A program made the position numbers and the translations under genes. DNA of 64,000 bases, from positions 96,799 through 160,798 of the forward strand of contig JAAQTN010000005.1 of assembly GCA_011742915.1 (NCBI GenBank), given 5' to 3'. Origin of the DNA: Billgrantia desiderata (GTDB lineage: Bacteria; Pseudomonadota; Gammaproteobacteria; Pseudomonadales; Halomonadaceae). Numbering within the stretch: position 1 is the first letter of the stretch; each line of letters starts with the position of its first letter. Positions 32,467 through 46,328 of the stretch are shown in pieces. Below the pieces are notes generated by a model. The model worked only from the letters and a program-made list of their open reading frames with translations. It made no database searches and was not told the origin of the DNA.

Positions 32467-33141
32467 ATGCACCTTGCCCTGTTCGACCTTGACGATACCC
32501 TGCTGGATGGCGACTGCAGCGCGCTCTGGAATGGCTGGATGGTAGAGCGTGGCTGGGTTGATGCCCCGGGCGAGTTTCTGGCCCATGCACAGGCCATGGA
32601 TGCGGCCTACCATACTGGCCGGTTGCGTCTGGAGAAGTATCTGTCTTTGACCTTGGCTCCCTTGGCCGGGCGCCATGTGAATGAGGTTGACGCCGAGGTG
32701 GCGGACTTCGTCGCGGCGCGCATCCTGCCGCGGCTGTTTGCTCAAGGGCGGGCGCGCATCGCCGAGCACTGCGCTCGGGGTGAGACGCCGATGATCATTT
32801 CCGCTTCGTCGCGGCATCTCGTGGCACCGATTGCTGCCGAGCTGGGTATCGAGGCGGTGATCGCCGTGGAGCCGGCGCTGGAGAGTGGGTACTTCACCGG
32901 TGGCACTACCGGGATACTCTCCTACCGGGATGGCAAGATCGCTCGCCTCGAGCAGTGGCTGGCGGAAAAGGGCGCTGTCAGCCATCTGACGTTCTATTCC
33001 GATTCTCAGAACGACTTGCCGCTACTTGGCCGGGTGGACCGCCCGGTGGCGGTGAACCCCGATGCGGTACTTGCCGAAGTGGCTCGGGTAGAGGGCTGGG
33101 AGCGGCTGGACTGGCGACCGTGTGCGGCGCTGGTCGGCTGA
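32467..33141 (+). CDS. HAD-IB phosphatase (SerB/PGP-like)
   Basis: A 224-residue cytoplasmic HAD hydrolase of subfamily IB. Motif I is LFDLDDTLLDGDC (D7 and D9), motif II the serine in MIISASSRH, motif IV YSDSQNDLPLL with the metal-binding aspartates. A four-helix cap lies between motifs I and II. The family includes phosphoserine phosphatase and lysophosphatidic/phosphatidylglycerolphosphate phosphatases; this subgroup is usually listed only as HAD-IB hydrolase. The start at 32467 has GGAGG six bases upstream and is preferred to the ATG at 32440. Confidence 0.88.
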   Translation: MHLALFDLDDTLLDGDCSALWNGWMVERGWVDAPGEFLAHAQAMDAAYHTGRLRLEKYLSLTLAPLAGRHVNEVDAEVADFVAARILPRLFAQGRARIAEHCARGETPMIISASSRHLVAPIAAELGIEAVIAVEPALESGYFTGGTTGILSYRDGKIARLEQWLAEKGAVSHLTFYSDSQNDLPLLGRVDRPVAVNPDAVLAEVARVEGWERLDWRPCAALVG

Positions 33142-33267
33142 CTCTGCGTCTCGCTCAGGCTCGAACATTCCGCAGAGCCAACCAATGTTGCACTCTTGAT
33201 CTCGTACTCCCTGGGCACGTTCTCTATAGTCGATCATTGTTGCCTGCTGGCTGACAGGGAGTGTTAC

Positions 33268-33495
33268 ATGAGTGATGCCTACTATCTGCGCCTCACCGAT
33301 CATCTGCGTGAGCTGCTCAGCAACCCGGAGGCCTTCGAGGCGGGCCGCCTGCCCGCCGAGCGGACCCTGGCGGAACGCTTTCGAACCACTCGGGTTACTT
33401 TGCGCCAGGCTTTGGCTCACCAGCCGTCTCCCCCCTACACCGTACGTTTGCCGCTCTTGCGGTTGAAGGGATGCAGCGCTTCGCGGCGTACGTAA
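33268..33495 (+). pseudogene. Truncated GntR-family regulator (PhnF/UTRA type), N-terminal fragment
   Basis: A good ribosome binding site (GGGAG) and ATG begin MSDAYYLRLTDHLRELL, leading into a GntR winged-helix with recognition segment LPAERTLAERF and RVTLRQALAH (about residues 28-51). There the homology stops and about two dozen unrelated residues follow before a stop. A complete UTRA-type regulator is about 240 residues; the wing and the whole effector domain are missing. The break (about 33424-33434) lies at the very end of the convergent ugpC gene, so the junction looks like a deletion that joined the two. By its YYLRLTDHL opening it resembles regulators of phosphonate or organophosphate genes. 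Confidence 0.8.
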
Positions 33496-34484
33496 AAGCG
33501 CAGGGTCTCGCCTTCCGCCACCGGAGGCTGGCCGGCGGTGCGAATCACGCTGGGCTGGTCGCTGCCGGCCAGGCGTACGTAGAGGTGGCTCTCGGCGCCG
33601 GCGGCCTCGAACAGCTCCAAGGTGGAGTCCACCACCAGGTGTGGGCCACTCGGGGCTTGCATGTGTAGGTCGTCGGGGCGAATGCCGACGATATCGGTAC
33701 TCTTGGGCAGGTCCCCGAGTAAGCCATTGCCCCTCTCTCGCAGGTAGTCTAGCGGAATCAGGTTCATGGCCGGTGAGCCGATGAAGGTCGCCACGAAGAT
33801 CGAGGCTGGGCGCGCATAGATCTCCATGGGGGTGCCGACCTGCTCGATGCGCCCGCCGTTGAGCACCACCAGGCGGTCGCCCAGGGTCATGGCTTCGAGC
33901 TGATCGTGGGTGACATAAAGGCTGGTGGTCTTCAGACGACGCTGGAGCTGCTTGATCTCCACGCGCATCTGCACCCGCAGCTTGGCATCGAGGTTGGAGA
34001 GCGGCTCGTCGAACAGAAAGGCGGCAGGCTCGCGCACCAAAGCCCGGCCCATGGCCACCCGCTGACGCTGGCCGCCCGAGAGCTGGCGCGGCTTGCGCGG
34101 CAGGAAGTCCTCGATTTCCAGCATGCGTGCCGCTTCCTGTACTCGTCGTTCGATCTCGCTGCGCTTAAAACCGCGATTCTTGAGGCCATAGGCCAGGTTG
34201 TCGAACACCGTCATATGGGGGTAGAGCGCGTAGTTCTGGAACACCATGGCGATGTCGCGCTGAGCGGGCTCCAGGTCGTTGACTACACTGTCGCCGATCT
34301 CCAGGCGTCCCTCGCTGATCGTCTCCAACCCCGCCACCATGCGCAGCAGGGTCGACTTGCCGCAGCCCGATGGGCCTACAAGGACCACGAATTCACCATC
34401 CGCCACTTCCAGGTCGATGCCCTTTACCGCCTGGACGCCGCCAGCATAGGTCTTCTTCAGGCCTTCCAATTTGATGCGTGCCAT
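33435..34484 (-). CDS. ugpC: sn-Glycerol-3-phosphate ABC transporter ATP-binding protein
   Basis: ATPase of the glycerol-3-phosphate and glycerophosphodiester importer, 349 residues (E. coli UgpC 356). Walker [10 protein letters not shown], signature [16 protein letters not shown], Walker [14 protein letters not shown] and H-loop YVTHDQLEA are intact, and a C-terminal OB-type (MalK-like) regulatory domain follows (residues about 235-349, [10 protein letters not shown]). Last gene of ugpBAEC, one base after ugpE. Its stop codon abuts the truncated GntR gene with no terminator between. Confidence 0.94.
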
Positions 34485-34485
34485 C

Positions 34486-35334
34486 TCACTTCTCCGTCTC
34501 GGTCAGGCCTTTCACGAACAGTCGCTGCATGAACAGGATCACCAGCACCGGGGGCAGCGCGGCCATGACCACCGCGGCCATCACCAGGTGCCATTGTGGG
34601 TCGCCGTCGGCAGCGGTGGTCATGCGCTGCAGGCCCATGACGATGGTGTAGTAGTCGGGGTCGGTGGTGATCAGAAGGGGCCAGAGGTACTGGTTCCAGC
34701 CGTAGATGAACATGATCACGAACAGCGCGGCGATGTTGGTCACCGACAGCGGCAGCAGGATGTCCTTGAAGAACTTCAGCGGCCCGGCGCCATCGACGCG
34801 GGCGGCTTCCAGCAGCTCTTCCGGCACCGTCATGAAGAACTGGCGGAACAGGAAAGTGGCGGTCGCCGAGGCGATCAACGGGATGGAGAGGCCGGCGAAG
34901 CTGTTGAGCATCCCGAGATCCGCCACCACGCGGAAGGTCGGGATGATGCGTACCTCCACCGGCAGCATCAGCGTGATGAAGATGATCCAGAAGAAGAACA
35001 GCCGGAACGGAAAGCGAAAATAGACGATGGCAAAAGCCGACAGCAGCGAGATGGACAGCTTGCCAAAGGTGATGGCCAGCGCCATCACCAGGCTGTTCCA
35101 CAGCATCTGGCCTGCCGGGGGCGCCCCGGCGCGAGAGAGTCCGGTCTCCCACATGGCACGGTAATTGTCGAGGGCATGACTGCCCGGCACCAACGGCAGG
35201 GTGCCGCGCAGGAACTCGCCAGGCCCCTGGGTGGAGGCGACGATGGCAATGTAGACCGGGAACAGTACCAGGGCCACGCCAAGGATCAGAATGGAGTGGG
35301 CGAAAAGATTCCCCCAGGGTCGATGTTCGACCAT
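34486..35334 (-). CDS. ugpE: sn-Glycerol-3-phosphate ABC transporter permease UgpE
   Basis: Second membrane subunit of the Ugp importer, 282 residues with six membrane segments. The EAA loop is [25 protein letters not shown]. The N-terminal [28 protein letters not shown] and C-terminal [13 protein letters not shown] are close to E. coli UgpE as I remember it. It lies 21 bp after ugpA and directly before ugpC. Confidence 0.94.
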
Positions 35335-35355
35335 AACGTTGTGTGCCTCTTGGGA

Positions 35356-36240
35356 TCAGTAGTTGACGCGCCGCTCGATGAAGCGGAACTGGATGACGGT
35401 CAGCGCGATGACGATGGCCATCAGGATCACCGACTGTGCAGCTGAACTGCCGATGTTCATGCCCACGAAACCATCGGCGTAGACCTTGTAGACCAAGATG
35501 TTGGTCGCCTGGGCCGGACCCCCTTGGGTGGTGGCGTGAATGACGCCGAAAGTGTCGAACATGGCATAGACCACGTTGACCACCAGCAGGAAGAACGTAG
35601 TGGGCGTCAGCAATGGGAATACGATAGTCCAGAAGCGCTTGACCGGTCCGGCTCCGTCGATGGCGGCGGCTTCGATCAGTGATTGCGGGATCGACTGCAG
35701 TCCAGCCAGGAAGAACAGGAAGTTGTAGGCGATCTGCTTCCATGCTGCAGCAATGATCACCAGCAGCATCGCATCCGTTCCAGAGGTGCGGTGGTTCCAG
35801 CGGTAGCCCAGCATGTCGAGAACGTAGGGCACGATGCCGATGGATGGGTTGAAAATGAACCACCACAGCACGCCAGCAATGGCAGGGGCGATGGCATAGG
35901 GCCATACCAGCAACGTGGTATAAGCGTCGCGAGAGCGAAGCAGTCGGTTGACGGTTGCCGCCAGCAGCAGTGCCGCGCTCATCGAAAGCAGAGTCGTGCC
36001 GATGGCGAACACGGCGGTAACCGACAGGGAATTGAGGTAGTAGGCGTCGTCGAAGAGTCGGGAAAAGTTGGCAAGACCCACGAAACTGGAGCTCAGGCCA
36101 AAGGCGTCCTCACGCAGCAGCGACTGATAGAGCGCCTGACTCGCCGGCCAGATGAAAAAGACCAATGTGACGATGACCTGAGGGGCCAGTAGCGCGTAGG
36201 GCAGCCAGCGCCCGGGGAACGTCATGCGTTTGGTTTGCAT
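35356..36240 (-). CDS. ugpA: sn-Glycerol-3-phosphate ABC transporter permease UgpA
   Basis: First membrane subunit, 294 residues with six segments. The EAA loop is [25 protein letters not shown], and [32 protein letters not shown] is the usual UgpA N-terminus. The start at 36240 ([12 protein letters not shown]) leaves a short cytoplasmic tail; an in-frame ATG at 36282 would run over the hairpin after ugpB. The gene is separated from ugpB by 68 bp containing a hairpin with T-run. Confidence 0.94.
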
Positions 36241-36263
36241 GGTATTGCTCGGCAAGGCGAAGG

Positions 36264-36297
36264 AAAAAGGCGCCCCCACCACTGGGGCGGAGGCGCC
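36264..36297 (-). terminator. Intercistronic hairpin with T-run between ugpB and ugpA
   Basis: On the minus strand a GC-rich foldback (CGCCCC pairing with GGGGCG, extendable through GGCGCC arms) is followed by TTTTT. A partial terminator here would lower permease and ATPase expression relative to the abundant periplasmic receptor, a common pattern in receptor-first ABC operons. Confidence 0.65.
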
Positions 36298-36308: not shown

Positions 36309-37625
36309 TTATTGATTGGCCTGTTCGAAGTCGCGAAGGAGAGCGTTGCCGCGGCGAGCCGCATCGGCACTGGCCTGTTCCCCGCTCTTGCTGCTTGTCA
36401 TTACCGCTTCCATCTCCTCGGAGATGATGTCGCGGATCTGCACGAAGTTGCCGAAGCGCAGCCCCTTGGAATTTTCGGTGGGCTCGTTGAGGGTCATTTG
36501 TTCGATGGAGATTTCGGTGCCCGGGTTTTCGGTATAGAAACCCTGTGACTCGCTCAACTCCCAGGCGGCATGAGTGATCGGCAGGTAGCCGGTTTTCTGA
36601 TGCCAGTCGGCTTGCACTTCAGGCTGGGAGAGGTAATCGAAGAAGGCTGCTACGGCTGCGTACTCTTCTTCGCTGTGACCTTGAAGCGTCCACAGGGTGG
36701 CGCCACCGATGATCGAGTTCTGCGGGGCACCATCGACATCTTCGTAGTAGGGCAGCATGCCGTAGCCGATCGAGAAATCGGCGTTGGCCAGCACGCCGGC
36801 ACGGGCTGCCGAGGAGCCGAAGAACATGGCGCATTCACCGGAATAGAACATCGGTGCTGCGTCGTTGCCCGGCCCCGGTCCACCCCAGCGGAATACGCCC
36901 TCGTCCTGCCACGCCTTCAGGTTGTCCCAGTGGCGGGCGACCAAGTCATTGTCGAAGACGAATTCGGTTTCAAGACCACCGAAGCCGTTCTCCAACGTTC
37001 CCAGCGGAGAGTCATGCATGGCGGAAAAATTCTCCAGCATGACCCAACTTGGCCAGGAGGTCGTGAAACCGCAGTTGGCGGCATCCTGTTCGCGCAACTG
37101 GCGCGAATAAGCTTCGATCTCTTCCCAAGTCTGCGGTGCGCCCTCGAGACCCGCCGCCTCGAAGGCGTCGCGGTTGTAATAGAGAATCGGGGTGGAAGAG
37201 TTGAAGGGGAAGGAGAGCATGTTGCCGCGGGTATCGGTGTAATAACCCACCACCGCCGGCAGGAAGGCCTCCCGATCGAAGGTGCGGCCATGGTCTTCCA
37301 TCAACTGGTAGATAGGATAGACCGCGCCTTCCGCTGCCATCATGGTGCCGGTACCCACCTCGAATACCTGCAGGATATGCGGATGCTGGCCCGCGCGGAA
37401 GGCAGCAATGGCGCCAGTCATGGTCTCGGTGTAGTTGCCACGATAGCTGGGACGAACTCGATAGTCGTCCTGAGAGGCATTGAACTCTTCTGTAACGGCT
37501 TCGAGCATCTCTCCCAGCTCGCCGCCCATGGCGTGCCACCATTGAACTTCGGTAGCGGCATGAACGGAAAAGGACAGTGACGCTACGAGTGCACCTGACA
37601 TGAAAGCGGTAGAGCGAGGCGACAT
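36309..37625 (-). CDS. ugpB: sn-Glycerol-3-phosphate-binding periplasmic protein UgpB
   Basis: Receptor for glycerol-3-phosphate and glycerophosphocholine, 438 residues, the same as E. coli UgpB. Signal peptide ends near VHAA (about residue 24). The mature part starts [25 protein letters not shown] and continues [37 protein letters not shown], essentially the UgpB signature including the residues that hold the phosphate. First gene of ugpBAEC and divergent from the c-di-GMP gene at 37775; a perfect Pho box lies between the two (37714-37731). Confidence 0.95.
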
Positions 37626-37713
37626 GAGACTCTCCTTGGGTGATGTCGCCGATAACGCTAGGCTCGTAGCGTGTCAATCAGGTTTCACGAATATGAATAA
37701 GCATTGCATAGCG

Positions 37714-37731
37714 CTGTCATGGTGCTGTCAT
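37714..37731 (+). promoter_or_regulatory. Perfect Pho box between ugpB and the EAL-CBS-GGDEF gene
   Basis: CTGTCATGGTGCTGTCAT: two exact CTGTCAT heptamers with four bases between (11 bp period), the PhoB consensus. It points toward the EAL-CBS-GGDEF gene with 43 bp to its ATG. It could also influence the divergent ugpBAEC operon, whose start codon is 88 bp away on the other side. A chance perfect match in 64 kb is expected about 0.0005 times with equal base use. Confidence 0.85.
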
Positions 37732-37774
37732 CTAAACGTTGCAATCTCGCCCTGACACCATTTCAGGGCTGACC

Positions 37775-39514
37775 ATGACGACCTCCGACACCGAGGAGAG
37801 CGAGCTCAGAGCGATCATAGAGGGCGAGCGGCTCACGCCATGCTTCCAACCCATCGTCGATGTCGCCAGGCAGTGCGTGCATGGCTACGAGGCGCTGATT
37901 CGTGGCCCCGAAGGCTCCAGGCTGCACTCTCCGTTGGCCCTGTTCGAGGTGGCCATTCAGTCGGGCCTGCTGGTAGAGCTCGATCTGCTGTGCCGCCGCC
38001 TGGCGATTGCCGCCTTCGTGCGGCTAGGCTTGCCCGGTAGGCTGTTCCTCAACGTGATGCCGTTGACCATCGTCGAGCGGGACTTCAGCGAGGGGTTGAC
38101 CCTGGGCTATCTGAGCGACCATGGGCTGGCTCCCAATCGTGTCGTCATCGAACTCACCGAACATCTGCCGATCACCGATTACGTGCTGATGCGCCAGGCG
38201 GTGGAGCACTATCGCGACATGGGCTTTCAGGTTGCGCTGGACGACCTGGGGGCCGGCCATTCGAGTCTGCGCCACTGGGCCGAGCTGCGCCCCGACTTCG
38301 TCAAGCTCGACCGCCACTTCATCACCGGCATCGATCAGGACCCCGACAAGCGGCAGTTCCTGCGCTCGATTCTCGATGTATCGCGCAGCCTCGGTTGCCA
38401 GCTGATAGCGGAAGGCGTGGAAACCGCCGAGGAGTACCGCTCGCTGTGGGAGCTGGATCGCAGCCTGTCGCTGCTGCAAGGCTACTACTTTGCCCGTCCC
38501 AGCCAGACCCCGTCGCGGGATATCGGCGGCGCACTGCCGGGCGGGGCCTCGCCCCGCCATGGATTGATACGCAGCGCCCACACCATCATGAAGTCGCTGG
38601 CACCGATCGAACCGCGGATGCCGGTACTGGAGCTGAGCGGACGATTTCGTGGCGAGCCGAGCCTGCGCTGTGTGGCGGTGGTGGAAAACGACAGGCCGGT
38701 CGGTGTGGTGCGGCGCAACGAATTACTTACCCTGTTCACCAACCCCTACAGTCATGCCCTGTTCGCCAAGCGTCTGGTGCGGGACATTTGCGACTCGCGC
38801 TTCGCCGTGGCCGTCGATGAAACGTCGCTGACCCTGCTCAGCCAGCAGATCACCGACAGTGCGGATGTGCCCCAGGAGGATTTCGTCATCGTCGACGGCG
38901 AGGGCTGTTATCGCGACATGGGTAATATCGTCGACTTGCTGCGTGAGATCACTGCCATTCAGGTGCGTCAGGCGCGCCATGCCAATCCGCTCACCGGCCT
39001 ACCCGGGAACCTGATGATCAACGAGACGCTGAGCGAATGGCTGGAGCATGGCAAGGTCTTCACTGCCGTCTACTGCGATCTCGACAACTTCAAGGCCTAT
39101 AACGACGCCTACGGCTATGCGCGGGGCGACCGAGTGATCCTGGCGCTGGCTCAACTGCTCGATGAGCAGGTCGGCAAGGCGGGGTTCATCGGTCACATCG
39201 GCGGTGACGACTTCATGCTGCTGCTGGACGATGCCGGTTGGGAGGCGCGTTGCCACCGTATTCTGACAGCATTCGGCGCCATGGCGCCGGACTTCTACGA
39301 TGCGGAGGATCGCCGAGCCGGCGGGGTACGGGTCGAGAATCGGCAGGGCAGCGTGACGTTCTATCCCTTCGTCAGTCTGTCGCTGGCGGCAAGGCCGGTA
39401 CGTGATGGTCGCGGCTGCGATGTCCTGGCGATTTCCGAAGACCTTTCGGAACTCAAGCAGCAGGCCAAGCGGCAAGCCGGTAACAGCCTTTTCATTGAAC
39501 GGCGCGTCAGGTGA
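37775..39514 (+). CDS. c-di-GMP signalling protein, EAL-CBS-GGDEF
   Basis: A 579-residue cytoplasmic protein without membrane segments. Residues about 10-245 form an EAL phosphodiesterase domain with the catalytic set visible: EAL at 39-41, ELTEH, DDLGAGHSS (loop 6), VKLDR and AEGVETAEE. A CBS pair follows (about 270-400; VAVVENDRPVGVVRRNELL and DFVIVDGEGCYRDMG), then a GGDEF domain with the site GGDDF at 476-480. The EAL domain looks active; GGDDF may cyclise or only bind GTP. The perfect Pho box upstream suggests induction in phosphate starvation, as for the PhoB-controlled phosphodiesterase RapA of Pseudomonas fluorescens, which lowers c-di-GMP and triggers biofilm dispersal. Confidence 0.92.
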   Translation: MTTSDTEESELRAIIEGERLTPCFQPIVDVARQCVHGYEALIRGPEGSRLHSPLALFEVAIQSGLLVELDLLCRRLAIAAFVRLGLPGRLFLNVMPLTIVERDFSEGLTLGYLSDHGLAPNRVVIELTEHLPITDYVLMRQAVEHYRDMGFQVALDDLGAGHSSLRHWAELRPDFVKLDRHFITGIDQDPDKRQFLRSILDVSRSLGCQLIAEGVETAEEYRSLWELDRSLSLLQGYYFARPSQTPSRDIGGALPGGASPRHGLIRSAHTIMKSLAPIEPRMPVLELSGRFRGEPSLRCVAVVENDRPVGVVRRNELLTLFTNPYSHALFAKRLVRDICDSRFAVAVDETSLTLLSQQITDSADVPQEDFVIVDGEGCYRDMGNIVDLLREITAIQVRQARHANPLTGLPGNLMINETLSEWLEHGKVFTAVYCDLDNFKAYNDAYGYARGDRVILALAQLLDEQVGKAGFIGHIGGDDFMLLLDDAGWEARCHRILTAFGAMAPDFYDAEDRRAGGVRVENRQGSVTFYPFVSLSLAARPVRDGRGCDVLAISEDLSELKQQAKRQAGNSLFIERRVR

Positions 39515-39550: not shown

Positions 39551-40972
39551 TTATTCAGCGCTGAGCGAGAGGGTGAAGCTTCCGCTCTCGCTGTTGCCGT
39601 AGGAACGGGCGGTGGCGCGGTAGGTGCCCGCCTCAAGGTGCGTGACGATGCGCGAGTTCATTCCCTCGCCGCCGTCATCGTCGCTGAGGAAAAGCCCTTC
39701 TCCTTCGAGTTCGAGATAGGCGTCGAAGTCGTCGGAAAGCAGGTCCAGGCGATACTGGCCGGCTTCCTCGATCACGATTTCATAGACGTTGCGCGCCCCC
39801 GGCTCCAGCCAGGCCTGCAGTGCACGGCCACTCTCCAGTTGCCCTTCGCTGGCGAGTTCGTCGAGGGCGATGGCGGCGGCACGCAGCTCGAACAGGCCGC
39901 TGCCCTGGCCGCTGTGGCTGCGAGCCAGTACGGTGTACTCGCCGGCTTCCAGCGAGCGGACCAGGCGCGCGTTCAGCCCTTCGCCGCCATCGTCGTCGCT
40001 GGCGGAGACCCCTTCGCCATACAGCTCCAGAAAGGCATCGAAGTCGGCGGAGAGCATGTCCAACGTCACCATGGCGGGAGCCTCGAGCGTAAGCCGGTAC
40101 TCCAGGCCGTTACCGCTGAACCAGCCAAACAGCGGCTCGCCGATCGCCAGCGCGCCGCTGTTGCGCAGGGTCTCGTCGCTGGCCAGCTCATGAAGGCCCA
40201 GCTCCAGGGTGTAGAGGCCGCTGTCCTGGCCGTAGGCGCTGCGGGCGGTGAGACGATACTCCCCGGGCTCGAGGAAGTCGGCAATGCGGGCATCCAGGTT
40301 GCCGGCGCTGTCGTCGTCCTCGCGGCGATAACCATTGGGACCTTCGAGCACCAGGTAGGCATCAACGTCGCTGGAGCGCATCTCGAACTGATAGAGGCCG
40401 CTCTCCTCGATGGTCACGCTGTAGGTATCTCCGCCGTCCTGCAGCCAGCCGTCGGCGCGGGTGGGCATGGCCAGCGTGTCGCTGGTCGTCAGCTCCATCT
40501 CCCGAGTGGTGAGGGTGAAGGGGCCGTAGCTGTGCATGTCCTGACCGCTGACCACCACCACGTATTCGCCGCCCTCGTCGATCCGACGTCGCAGGGAAGC
40601 GGCCGTCGAGGCGTCGTAATACATGGGGCCCGCACTGCTGGTAAGCAACTGCAGCTCGGCATCATAGAGCGTGAGCGTGCCGTGCAGAGGGCCACCCAGC
40701 TCGATCTCGATCAGGGTTCCCTCTTCGAGCGGCAGGTGGAAACGCTCGAAGCGGCTGCCATCCTTGCCGTTCAGTTCGCTGGACGAAGTGATCTCGCTGC
40801 GCAGCCGTTCGCCAAGCTGCAAGGTCGGCGTGGAAACGGTAGCGTCCGCTACGGCCTGTTCGATGGCCGGAACGGGAGCGGTCGAACTACTCGGTACTTG
40901 CCAGCCGACGATCAAGCCGATGGCGGCGCCGCCCAGGGCGGCAAGAGAGGTGGAGGAGGCGCGATTGGCCAT
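39551..40972 (-). CDS. Exported protein with four tandem PPC-like beta-sandwich repeats
   Basis: A 473-residue protein with an N-terminal hydrophobic segment (AALGGAAIGLIVGWQV, about residues 12-27) and no cytoplasmic motifs after it. The rest is four repeats of roughly 90 residues resembling the bacterial pre-peptidase C-terminal (PPC) domain. The last three share a motif: DAYLVLEGPNG with DDDSAGNLDARI, DAFLELYGEG with SDDDGGEGLNARL, DAYLELEGEG with SDDDGGEGMNSRI, each followed by LEAGEY/TY and a small aromatic end. The acidic loops could bind calcium. There is no protease domain, which is where PPC domains are usually found. AAGGA lies eight bases before ATG 40972. Confidence 0.75.
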   Translation of the reverse strand: MANRASSTSLAALGGAAIGLIVGWQVPSSSTAPVPAIEQAVADATVSTPTLQLGERLRSEITSSSELNGKDGSRFERFHLPLEEGTLIEIELGGPLHGTLTLYDAELQLLTSSAGPMYYDASTAASLRRRIDEGGEYVVVVSGQDMHSYGPFTLTTREMELTTSDTLAMPTRADGWLQDGGDTYSVTIEESGLYQFEMRSSDVDAYLVLEGPNGYRREDDDSAGNLDARIADFLEPGEYRLTARSAYGQDSGLYTLELGLHELASDETLRNSGALAIGEPLFGWFSGNGLEYRLTLEAPAMVTLDMLSADFDAFLELYGEGVSASDDDGGEGLNARLVRSLEAGEYTVLARSHSGQGSGLFELRAAAIALDELASEGQLESGRALQAWLEPGARNVYEIVIEEAGQYRLDLLSDDFDAYLELEGEGLFLSDDDGGEGMNSRIVTHLEAGTYRATARSYGNSESGSFTLSLSAE

Positions 40973-41148
40973 GAAAGCGTCCTTGTTCGATGGCAAGCAT
41001 CGGTGAGAGGGCCCGCCAGGGGTTACATTGCGTAACCATTATATGTCGGGTCTGCGTTGAGGGATATGTGCCGAATCGGCGCTTGCACTTCGCCAGGCGG
41101 CGACCACACTGGTGGCGTTATCACAGCATGCAACGAAGAGGAGTCGGG

Positions 41149-43820: not shown

Positions 43821-44636
43821 TCAGATGATGGCGTGGCGCACCCGGGCGGAGATCCACTCCGAGGCTAGCACGGTGACGAAGATCATCACGAAGATGACGC
43901 TGACCTGATTCCAGGCCAGGCTGTTGATCGCGGCGTTGAGTTGCAGGCCGATGCCGCCTGCGCCCACCAGCCCCAGTACCGTGGATTCCCGGATGTTGAT
44001 GTCCCAACGATAGACACTGATGCCGGCAAAGGCGGGCATGACCTGGGGCAGCACGCCGTAGCCCATCACCTGCATGCGCCCGGCGCCGGTAGCGCTGATC
44101 GCCTCGACCGGGGTGGGGTGGATCTCCTCGATGGCCTCGTAAAGCAGCTTGCCGATGAAACCGATGGAGCGCAGAGCGATGGCGATGATGCCGGCCAGCA
44201 CGCCCGGGCCGAGGATGGTCACCAGCAACATGGCCCAGATCAGCGAGTTGATGGAGCGCGACGAGACGATGATCAGCAAGGCGGCGCTGCGCACCAGCGG
44301 GTGCGGCGAGGTGTTACGGGCCGCCAGGAAGGCCACCGGGAAGGCCATGGCGATACCCAGCAGCGTACCCAGGGTGGCGATGTTGAGGGTATCCCACATC
44401 GGCCCCCACAGCCGGTGGGCGTAGCTCCACTGAGGCGGCAGCATGCGGCTGATGAGATCGCTGCCCTGACGGCCGGCGTCCTCGACGAAGACCCACATGG
44501 TGTTGTCGGAGATCACCTTCCAGCACAGCAGGAAGAGGCAGGCGCCGGCCAGCCAGCCGAGATATTGTAGCCATTGGGTGCGGGTGGTGTGCAGGCGCCA
44601 GCTCGGCGTGCCCTGCGGAGTCGTCGAAACGGGCAT
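43821..44636 (-). CDS. phnE: Phosphonate ABC transporter permease PhnE (second copy)
   Basis: 271 residues, six membrane segments, PhnE family: GFIGKLLYEAIEEIHPTPVEAISATGAGRMQVMGYGVLPQVMP contains the EAA-type loop, and WDINIRESTVLGLVGAGGIG is the PhnE signature near the C-terminus. AAGGA precedes the ATG. It lies 52 bp after the other phnE gene. Paired PhnE permeases are usual in organisms where the channel is a heterodimer. The importer may carry phosphonates, phosphite or related compounds. Confidence 0.92.
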   Translation of the reverse strand: MPVSTTPQGTPSWRLHTTRTQWLQYLGWLAGACLFLLCWKVISDNTMWVFVEDAGRQGSDLISRMLPPQWSYAHRLWGPMWDTLNIATLGTLLGIAMAFPVAFLAARNTSPHPLVRSAALLIIVSSRSINSLIWAMLLVTILGPGVLAGIIAIALRSIGFIGKLLYEAIEEIHPTPVEAISATGAGRMQVMGYGVLPQVMPAFAGISVYRWDINIRESTVLGLVGAGGIGLQLNAAINSLAWNQVSVIFVMIFVTVLASEWISARVRHAII

Positions 44637-44688
44637 GTGTCAATCCTTTCAGACAAAGACAATGGGCGGCGCGCACACCGCCATCGCA

Positions 44689-45498
44689 TCATTGGGTCCA
44701 GCGGCGGATATGGCTCGAGGAGTACTCACACAGCAGCACGATGGCGATGATGATCAAGAGTATTGCCGCCGAGGTGTCGTACTCGTAGCGGCTGATCGAG
44801 GTGTTGAGGGTGGCGCCGATGCCGCCCGCCCCGACGATGCCGATCACCGCCGATTCGCGGAAGTTGATGTCCAGGCGGTACATCGAGAGCCCGATCAAGC
44901 GCGGCATCACCTGGGGCTGTACGGCGTGGTTCATGGTTTGCCACCAGTTGGCCCCGGTGGCGCGGACCGCCTCGACCTGACGCCAGTCCAGATCCTCGAT
45001 GTCCTCGGCCAGTAGCTTGGCCATGAAACCGATGGTGGCGAAGGCCAGCGTGATCATGCCGGCCAGGGGGCCGAAGCCGAACATCACCACGAACAGAATG
45101 GCGATGATGATCTCCTGGAAGGTACGCGACACGGTGATGATGCCGCGGCACAGGTAGTAGATGGGCCAGGGTGCGATGTTGCGCGCTGCGCCCAGCCCCA
45201 CCGGGATCGACAGGGCCACGCCGATCACCGTCGAGGTGACGGTCATGGTCAGGCTCTCGAGAATGCCATTGATGATGTCGCCGCGGCGGCTGACGAAATC
45301 AGGCTGGGTGAAAGCGGCCAGGAAGTTCAGCCCGCGACCGGCGCCCTCGGCGACCCGAGTCCAGTTGACCTCCACCGAGGCCAACGCGAGCACCAGGTAA
45401 ACGGCGAGACCGAGAACCAGCCCCCAGCGCAGTCTGGGATTTTCGATCAGCGGCAGCCGTCGCCACTGGCCTGCCTGGGCCTTTGCCTGGCGGCTCAT
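44689..45498 (-). CDS. phnE: Phosphonate ABC transporter permease PhnE (first copy)
   Basis: 269 residues, PhnE family, with [38 protein letters not shown] as coupling loop and [20 protein letters not shown] as C-terminal signature. Its start overlaps the phnC stop by four bases (ATGA), so translation is coupled. It is about one-third identical by eye to the neighbouring permease, as expected for a heterodimer pair. Confidence 0.92.
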
Positions 45499-46328
45499 GA
45501 GGCGCCACCACTGGCCAGCATGAGTCGGGAAGCCGGTACCTCACGCGGTGACGTGCTCTCGCCGATGTCGTCCTGAACTCGGGTATCCCACTCCTCCTCG
45601 CCATAGATGGTGGTGAGGGTGTCGGCATCCAGTTCGCCGGGCTTGCCGTCGAAGACGATCTGGCCGGCGCGCAGGCCGACGATGCGGTCGGCGAACTGCT
45701 GGGCCAGAGCCACATCGTGGATGTTGATGATGGCGGCCAGCTCACGCTCGGCGCACAGTTCGCGGATCAGGCGCATGATCTGACGTGAGGTCTTGGGGTC
45801 GAGGCTCGCAGTGGGCTCGTCCACCAGCAGCAGGCGCGGGCTCTGTATCAATGCCCGGGCGATGCCCACCCGCTGGCGCTGGCCGCCGGAGAGCGCGTCG
45901 GCACGCTTGTCCATGGCATGCGGCAGGCCGACCCGGTCGAGCAGGCGGAAGGCTTCGGCAATGTCTTCCTGCGGGTAGCGACGCGTGAAGCTGCGCCAGA
46001 AGCCGACGTAGCCGAGCCGTCCCGAGAGTACGTTCTCCATCACCGTGAGGCGATCCACCAGAGCGTACTCCTGGAAGATCATGGCCATGGAACGTCGTGC
46101 TCGGCGCAGCGCCGCGCCGGAGAGGCGGGTCAGTTCGGTGTCTTCCAGGCGGATGCTGCCGCTGGTGGGCTCCACCAGACGGTTGACGCAGCGAATCAGC
46201 GTACTCTTGCCGGCCCCGGAGGGGCCGATCAGTGCCATGACCTGACCGCGCGGCAGGTTCAGGTCGATGTCGGTCAGAGCACGGTCCCCGGTGGGGTAGC
46301 GCTTGGTGACCTGGGATAGAGTCAGCAT
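45495..46328 (-). CDS. phnC: Phosphonate ABC transporter ATP-binding protein
   Basis: 277 residues. Walker [10 protein letters not shown], signature [16 protein letters not shown], Walker [14 protein letters not shown] and H-loop [16 protein letters not shown] are intact; the [17 protein letters not shown] segment after the Q-loop is characteristic of PhnC. The C-terminal 35 residues extend beyond the ABC domain. GGGAG lies nine bases before the ATG. Order in the operon is phnD-phnC-phnE-phnE. Confidence 0.94.

Follow-up and report, generated by a model that had tools for sequence, protein, structure and literature searches.

In Pseudomonas fluorescens Pf0-1, low phosphate leads to cleavage of LapA: PhoB acts at a Pho box upstream of rapA, the c-di-GMP phosphodiesterase RapA is expressed in low phosphate and depletes c-di-GMP, and LapD and LapG relay the loss to LapA (available text of PMC3032545). 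A related protein of Pseudomonas aeruginosa, PA3258, is called a RapA homologue with the domains EAL-CBS-GGDEF in the accessible portions of PMC12900916 and a putative RapA orthologue, for which cyclase activity is considered possible, in those of PMC9394441. In a Salmonella host, wild-type PA3258 behaves as a phosphodiesterase and an EAL-dead form behaves as if it were cyclase active; earlier screens gave no phenotype (PMC12900916). Deletion of PA3258 disrupts mushroom-like biofilm structures (PMC9355167), which is a misfit with the simple view that less phosphodiesterase means more biofilm. These statements come from excerpts of the three papers, and phosphate control of PA3258 goes unmentioned in those excerpts. 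Our literature search, whose scope did not extend to the work of Monds and colleagues (2006, 2007), returned no title or abstract on Pho control of RapA across the order.

Here, we describe a RapA-like gene in a 64,000-nucleotide stretch of Billgrantia desiderata DNA (the window). Like rapA of Pf0-1, the gene has a Pho box upstream, and its product resembles PA3258 in being an EAL-CBS-GGDEF protein. In contrast to rapA, it lies in a phosphorus-uptake neighborhood (ugp and phn genes) and is divergent from ugpB. EAL and GGDEF domains are shared with LapD as well; however, LapD is a receptor, and the LapD-like copy of the same genome has a HAMP domain and a LapD/MoxY periplasmic domain, whereas EAL, CBS, and GGDEF are the only domains that Pfam finds in the window protein. 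The features discussed below are collected in Table 1. Judged from sequence comparison, the gene is quite probably a RapA orthologue by which low phosphate would, through PhoB, lower c-di-GMP and favor detachment.

Table 1. Features of the rapA-like locus, in window coordinates
Feature	Coordinates	Strand	Evidence and remarks
rapA-like gene, 579 aa, EAL-CBS-CBS-GGDEF putative c-di-GMP phosphodiesterase	37775..39514	+	ORF, Pfam, alignment
EAL domain, residues 11-242	37805..38500	+	Pfam, 179 bits; motif residues intact
CBS pair	38591..38950	+	First unit, residues 273-320, Pfam sub-threshold; second unit, residues ~340-392, fold only
GGDEF domain, residues 405-490	38987..39244	+	Pfam, 59.5 bits; signature GGDDF at residues 476-480
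Pho box, exact	37714..37731	+	Pattern scan of window and genome
Third half-site, ATTGCAT, weaker	37703..37709		11 bp upstream of Pho box
Predicted -10 hexamer, CAATCT	37742..37747	+	10-nt gap after box, the family's common register
ugpB, divergent neighbor	36309..37625	-	NCBIfam NF008211, 500.6 bits (cut-off, 411)
ugpA, ugpE, and ugpC, rest of glycerol-3-phosphate transporter	33435..36282	-	ugpC, NCBIfam 520.4 bits (cut-off, 432); ugpA, ugpE, and UgpC named on similar plasmid DNA
phnC and two phnE-like permease genes, phosphonate transporter	43821..46328	-	phnC and outer phnE over cut-offs

Domain architecture of the RapA-like protein

The window protein carries the EAL domain, the CBS pair, and the GGDEF domain in this order in one chain, the second CBS unit being recognized by fold only. 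The first CBS unit scores 19.4 bits against a Pfam cut-off of 24 bits, and CBS is matched at E values up to 0.1 in all 22 aligned proteins (the window protein and 21 Pseudomonas relatives), with a best E value of 1.2e-8. The full-length AlphaFold model has a mean pLDDT of 69, and a model of the segment from residue 250 to 410 has a mean pLDDT of 59, which is low confidence. The segment model gave 92 PDB matches at an E value of 0.001 or better; among the 50 matches listed, many titles name CBS domains, and the remaining ones (such as IMP dehydrogenase, MgtE, and OpuCA) are proteins that we take to carry CBS domains. A second CBS unit is thus plausible from the fold of this low-confidence model. 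Presumably, only this second unit keeps the aspartate of the usual CBS ribose-binding motif.

Each of 12 EAL motif residues is found in 108 or 109 of 109 aligned rows, and the window protein has all 12, as expected from the original prediction of intact EAL motifs. That prediction also drew a parallel with RapA, and rightly so, but held that the domain order differs from that of RapA. The supposed contrast was mistaken because PA3258, the RapA homologue in print, is itself EAL-CBS-GGDEF (PMC12900916, in the portions available), and relatives from the P. fluorescens group share this domain content and order. The 21 named relatives from this group are 40 to 42% identical to the window protein over the full length. 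Named loci were collected with a profile of family f21; Pf0-1 RapA is absent from the best 80 of the 563 relatives found, all 80 titled Pseudomonas, and the orthology rests on close relatives and on the cited papers. In two of the named records (P. aeruginosa plasmid pPALO11 and P. fluorescens PfAR1), the rapA-like gene follows a gene encoding a carboxy-terminal-processing peptidase. The pPALO11 protein is 42.5% identical to the window protein, and its gene has a 2-mismatch Pho box at -73. Taking prc to be PA3257, we assume that the pPALO11 gene corresponds to PA3258.

A Pho-type promoter before the rapA-like gene

All scans used the pattern CTGTCATNNNNCTGTCAT, with mismatches counted over the 14 half-site positions. 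The box upstream of the rapA-like gene (CTGTCATGGTGCTGTCAT; CTGTCAT-GGTG-CTGTCAT) is exact and is separated by 43 bp from the ATG at 37775, in agreement with what had been predicted, and it is the only site without a mismatch both in the window and in the whole 4.89-Mb genome. With up to 3 mismatches allowed, 10 sites were observed in the window versus 3.7 expected from shuffles, and 100 + 101 sites in the genome versus 44 + 38 for the pattern read backwards. A Pho box, a 10-nucleotide gap, and a hexamer make up the spacing of a PhoB-activated promoter, and the predicted -10 hexamer stands at this distance. The exact box, together with the full set of EAL motif residues, supports the earlier view that a Pho-type promoter precedes an intact EAL phosphodiesterase. 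A leader hairpin between promoter and gene (GCCCTGA/TCAGGGC, positions 37749 to 37769) was considered as a conserved element and set aside as weak; it is found in the window and in the same-genus locus L039 and is missing from L040.

Elsewhere in the genome, there are four 1-mismatch sites. Three of them precede genes for a UgpC-like ABC ATPase (409 bits; cut-off, 432), a PstC-like permease (172.5 bits; cut-off, 196), and an Na/Pi cotransporter (PF02690, over its cut-off), while no clear target was found for the fourth, on contig C24. The phoB gene (contig C28, positions 32571 to 33242; above the NCBIfam cut-off) has a 2-mismatch site 58 bp upstream (positions 33300 to 33317). Given these targets (PstC-like, Na/Pi cotransporter, UgpC-like, and phoB), the best consensus sites mark mostly phosphate genes.

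Conservation of the box among relatives

Genome searches returned matches in 53 of 97 genomes at an E value of 1e-30, many of them to the EAL domain only; a search across the order at 1e-60 was positive for 95 of 390 genomes. A tree of 109 rows was built by a quick method with one support value and no outgroup; the border of the RapA family is therefore not tested by it. Five named strains fall within f21. A clade of 25 rows (support, 100) unites 24 rows of the window's family, f1, with L078 of f20, and the f1 rows L136 and L143 lie outside it. Boxes were counted over 104 rows, which include the window and the EAL-only relative L063 (left out of the tree) and omit L044, L045, and L082, in which the aligned start is late or upstream DNA is missing; the EAL-only matches of genomes G257, G297, and G337 and a second copy in G144 lie outside the sample.

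A forward box with at most 3 of 14 mismatches is present in 66 of the 104 rows (65 of 103 without L063) in a stretch from 300 bases upstream to 30 bases downstream of the aligned start, and the other 38 have none there. On the same rows, the controls gave 11 (reversed pattern), 10 (opposite strand), about 1.3 (shuffles), and 0 (a stretch inside the gene). Since the reversed pattern shares part of the motif, it serves poorly as a control; the shuffles and the intragenic stretch are better ones. The sites are spread over 15 of the 18 sampled families, and the window's own family has the box in 12 of 25 rows. Most lie between -61 and -129, with a few farther away (e.g., -297 in L078 and -202 in L055). 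Where a box lies at -135 to -50 (62 rows), the hexamer after the 10-nucleotide gap has A at the second place in 74% and T at the sixth in 81%. Among the 80 named Pseudomonas loci (the best 80 of the 563 relatives), the closest match to the pattern differs at 2 positions in 37 loci, at 3 in 9, and at 4 in 34. Same-genus loci that are at least 64% identical and have readable upstream DNA all carry a site with up to 3 mismatches, except L043 (4 mismatches); in L044, outside the 104 rows, such a site sits at -197.

Some relatives have an unusual organization. In L063 (genome G096) and in G257, G297, and G337, the match is limited to the EAL domain (46 to 49% identity); in L063, a Pho box with 1 mismatch stands at -129, as though the box had been retained without the CBS-GGDEF part. 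The relative on the Marinobacter salarius conjugative plasmid pHL2708Z5 (L257) is annotated as separate EAL and GGDEF genes; it lies near an IS66-type element and a chemoreceptor gene of opposite orientation, and its best upstream site has 4 mismatches. Six Pseudomonas loci (L240, L161, L200, L218, L238, and L256) have an intrinsic-terminator-like hairpin between the Pho box and the start codon, and in L240 and L256 it is preceded by a carboxy-terminal-processing peptidase gene. We rejected this hairpin as a conserved leader element, as it resembles a terminator belonging to the preceding peptidase gene; the rapA transcript of these hairpin-bearing loci may start inside it.

A chemoreceptor gene ahead of rapA in a sister clade

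The box is largely missing from a sister clade of nine rows (L048 to L054, L076, and L078; support, 99), eight of which have no site with up to 4 mismatches before the rapA-like gene; the ninth, L078, has the 3-mismatch site mentioned above. Seven of the nine rows (not L051 and L078) have a methyl-accepting chemoreceptor gene (TarH-HAMP) directly upstream on the same strand. The same arrangement is found in one unrelated row, L138, and the chemoreceptor match of L055 is on the other strand. Overall, 8 of 105 loci have the chemoreceptor gene before rapA, and none of the 8 has a site with up to 4 mismatches at rapA; as seven of these loci are related, the cases are not independent.

Upstream of the chemoreceptor gene, the sequence ATGTCAT followed, after ten bases, by TATAAC or TATAAG occurs in five of the six readable loci of the clade (L049, L050, L052, L053, and L054, not L048); L076, a truncated row, and L138, aligned only from residue 193, were not counted. 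The 18-base sites here have 3 to 5 mismatches, and the first half-site varies. Going by its sequence, this element could represent a Pho promoter that has been moved or weakened. A tentative extension, toward which we are mildly disinclined, is that Pho control of RapA is ancestral in the Pho regulon of the order rather than peculiar to Pseudomonas and that one clade near that of the window has placed a TarH-type chemoreceptor gene between a Pho-like promoter and rapA.

Proposed pathway and output

By analogy with Pf0-1, a fall in phosphate would let PhoR/PhoB turn on the rapA-like gene along with phosphorus-uptake genes, and the EAL domain would then hydrolyze c-di-GMP to pGpG. LapD, emptied of c-di-GMP, would free LapG, which would cut a LapA-type adhesin so that the cell detaches from the surface. 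Regulation of the EAL domain probably falls to the CBS pair and the GGDDF domain, with a nucleotide (adenine nucleotide and/or GTP) as the signal; nucleotide sensing by the CBS pair, as put forward in the original prediction, may be part of this.

Candidate components of the last steps are present in the genome. A LapD-like gene scores 452 bits against an NCBIfam equivalog cut-off of 1020, and the adjoining LapG-like gene scores 223 bits against 320; the pair lies at positions 1555 to 4423 of contig C43 (L159). No ORF of more than 962 aa was found in the first 20 kb of that contig and hence no giant adhesin gene beside the pair there. One LapA retention module (retention_LapA) reaches 98.7 bits (cut-off, 50), but the open frame that holds it is just 436 aa long. 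On these matches, a LapD-LapG-LapA adhesin route is plausible in this bacterium.

Alternatively, the gene may be under Pho control and have an output other than adhesin release by LapD and LapG, acting instead on motility, exopolysaccharide, or a different local target. The 21 EAL matches of the genome, along with 49 to the LapD model (mostly to its GGDEF or EAL parts), leave room for local pools; with so many EAL matches, one enzyme need not move the c-di-GMP pool. The LapD and LapG scores under cut-off, the short LapA-type frame, and the mixed phenotypes of PA3258 (PMC9394441, PMC12900916, and PMC9355167, as excerpted) also fit such an output. Nevertheless, LapD-like, LapG-like, and LapA-module genes do exist in the genome, and RapA acts via the LapD-LapG route (PMC3032545, available text), so we regard a different output as rather unlikely.

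Less probable again is that the protein works as a net diguanylate cyclase, or as a GTP-gated switch, in some nucleotide states, in which case starvation need not lower c-di-GMP. The signature GGDDF, in place of GGDEF, shows no variation across the 109 rows, the window included, and the same holds for seven more positions of the GGDEF domain, though in 45 of the 109 rows N replaces the second D of the DxD motif. In the parts of the papers at hand, PMC9394441 suggests cyclase activity of PA3258, the EAL-inactivated protein behaves consistently with a cyclase (PMC12900916), and biofilm structures are lost in the deletion mutant (PMC9355167). However, the EAL residues are almost equally invariant, wild-type PA3258 behaves as a phosphodiesterase in the heterologous host (PMC12900916), and RapA lowers c-di-GMP (PMC3032545). 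A phosphodiesterase of the RapA type is thus the reading that we prefer, and we consider a net cyclase or switch improbable.

The ugp and phn neighborhood

Five of 16 same-genus loci (L039, L040, L041, L042, and L046) have relatives of phnC and phnE no more than about 8 kb away from the rapA-like gene, and ugpBAEC adjoins this gene in two of the five (L040 and L041); L044 and L047 have weaker transporter matches only, and L042 and L045 are short loci. On its other side, the rapA-like gene is convergent with a gene for a PPC-domain (pre-peptidase C-terminal) protein (positions 39551 to 40996), a relative of which stands behind rapA in L039 to L045.

The original prediction had one box in the shared region coordinating ugpB and the phosphodiesterase gene, which our results do not support. 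The box points toward the phosphodiesterase gene, on the side where the -10 hexamer sits in the common register, and in each of the three loci sampled with a divergent ugpB (the window, G036, and G050) the best forward box facing ugpB has at least 5 mismatches. Where ugpB stands elsewhere, it has its own forward box with 1 to 3 mismatches in 9 of 11 loci. From these sites, the divergent ugpB could either have lost Pho control or have been taken over by the shared box. That the box serves mainly ugpB, or both genes, and fits the phosphodiesterase gene by accident is very improbable: a shared box might indeed substitute for the one that divergent ugpB genes lack, but its orientation and register favor rapA, it recurs before rapA-like genes across the order, and boxes with 0 to 2 mismatches precede rapA-like genes without an adjacent ugp (L039, L042, and L046).

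Implications

The phosphate-starvation switch before a RapA-type enzyme is sound and mostly already understood; the features that deserve closer attention are the order-wide conservation of the box and the placement of the chemoreceptor gene. The former suggests that the link from phosphate to c-di-GMP, known from one Pseudomonas, is a common rule across a large order, one that would include bacteria with the rapA-like gene inside a phosphorus-uptake cluster. The sister clade represents a possible rewiring, with a chemoreceptor gene ahead of the enzyme. If this is true, release from a surface and steering away from it would be encoded in a single phosphate-starvation operon.
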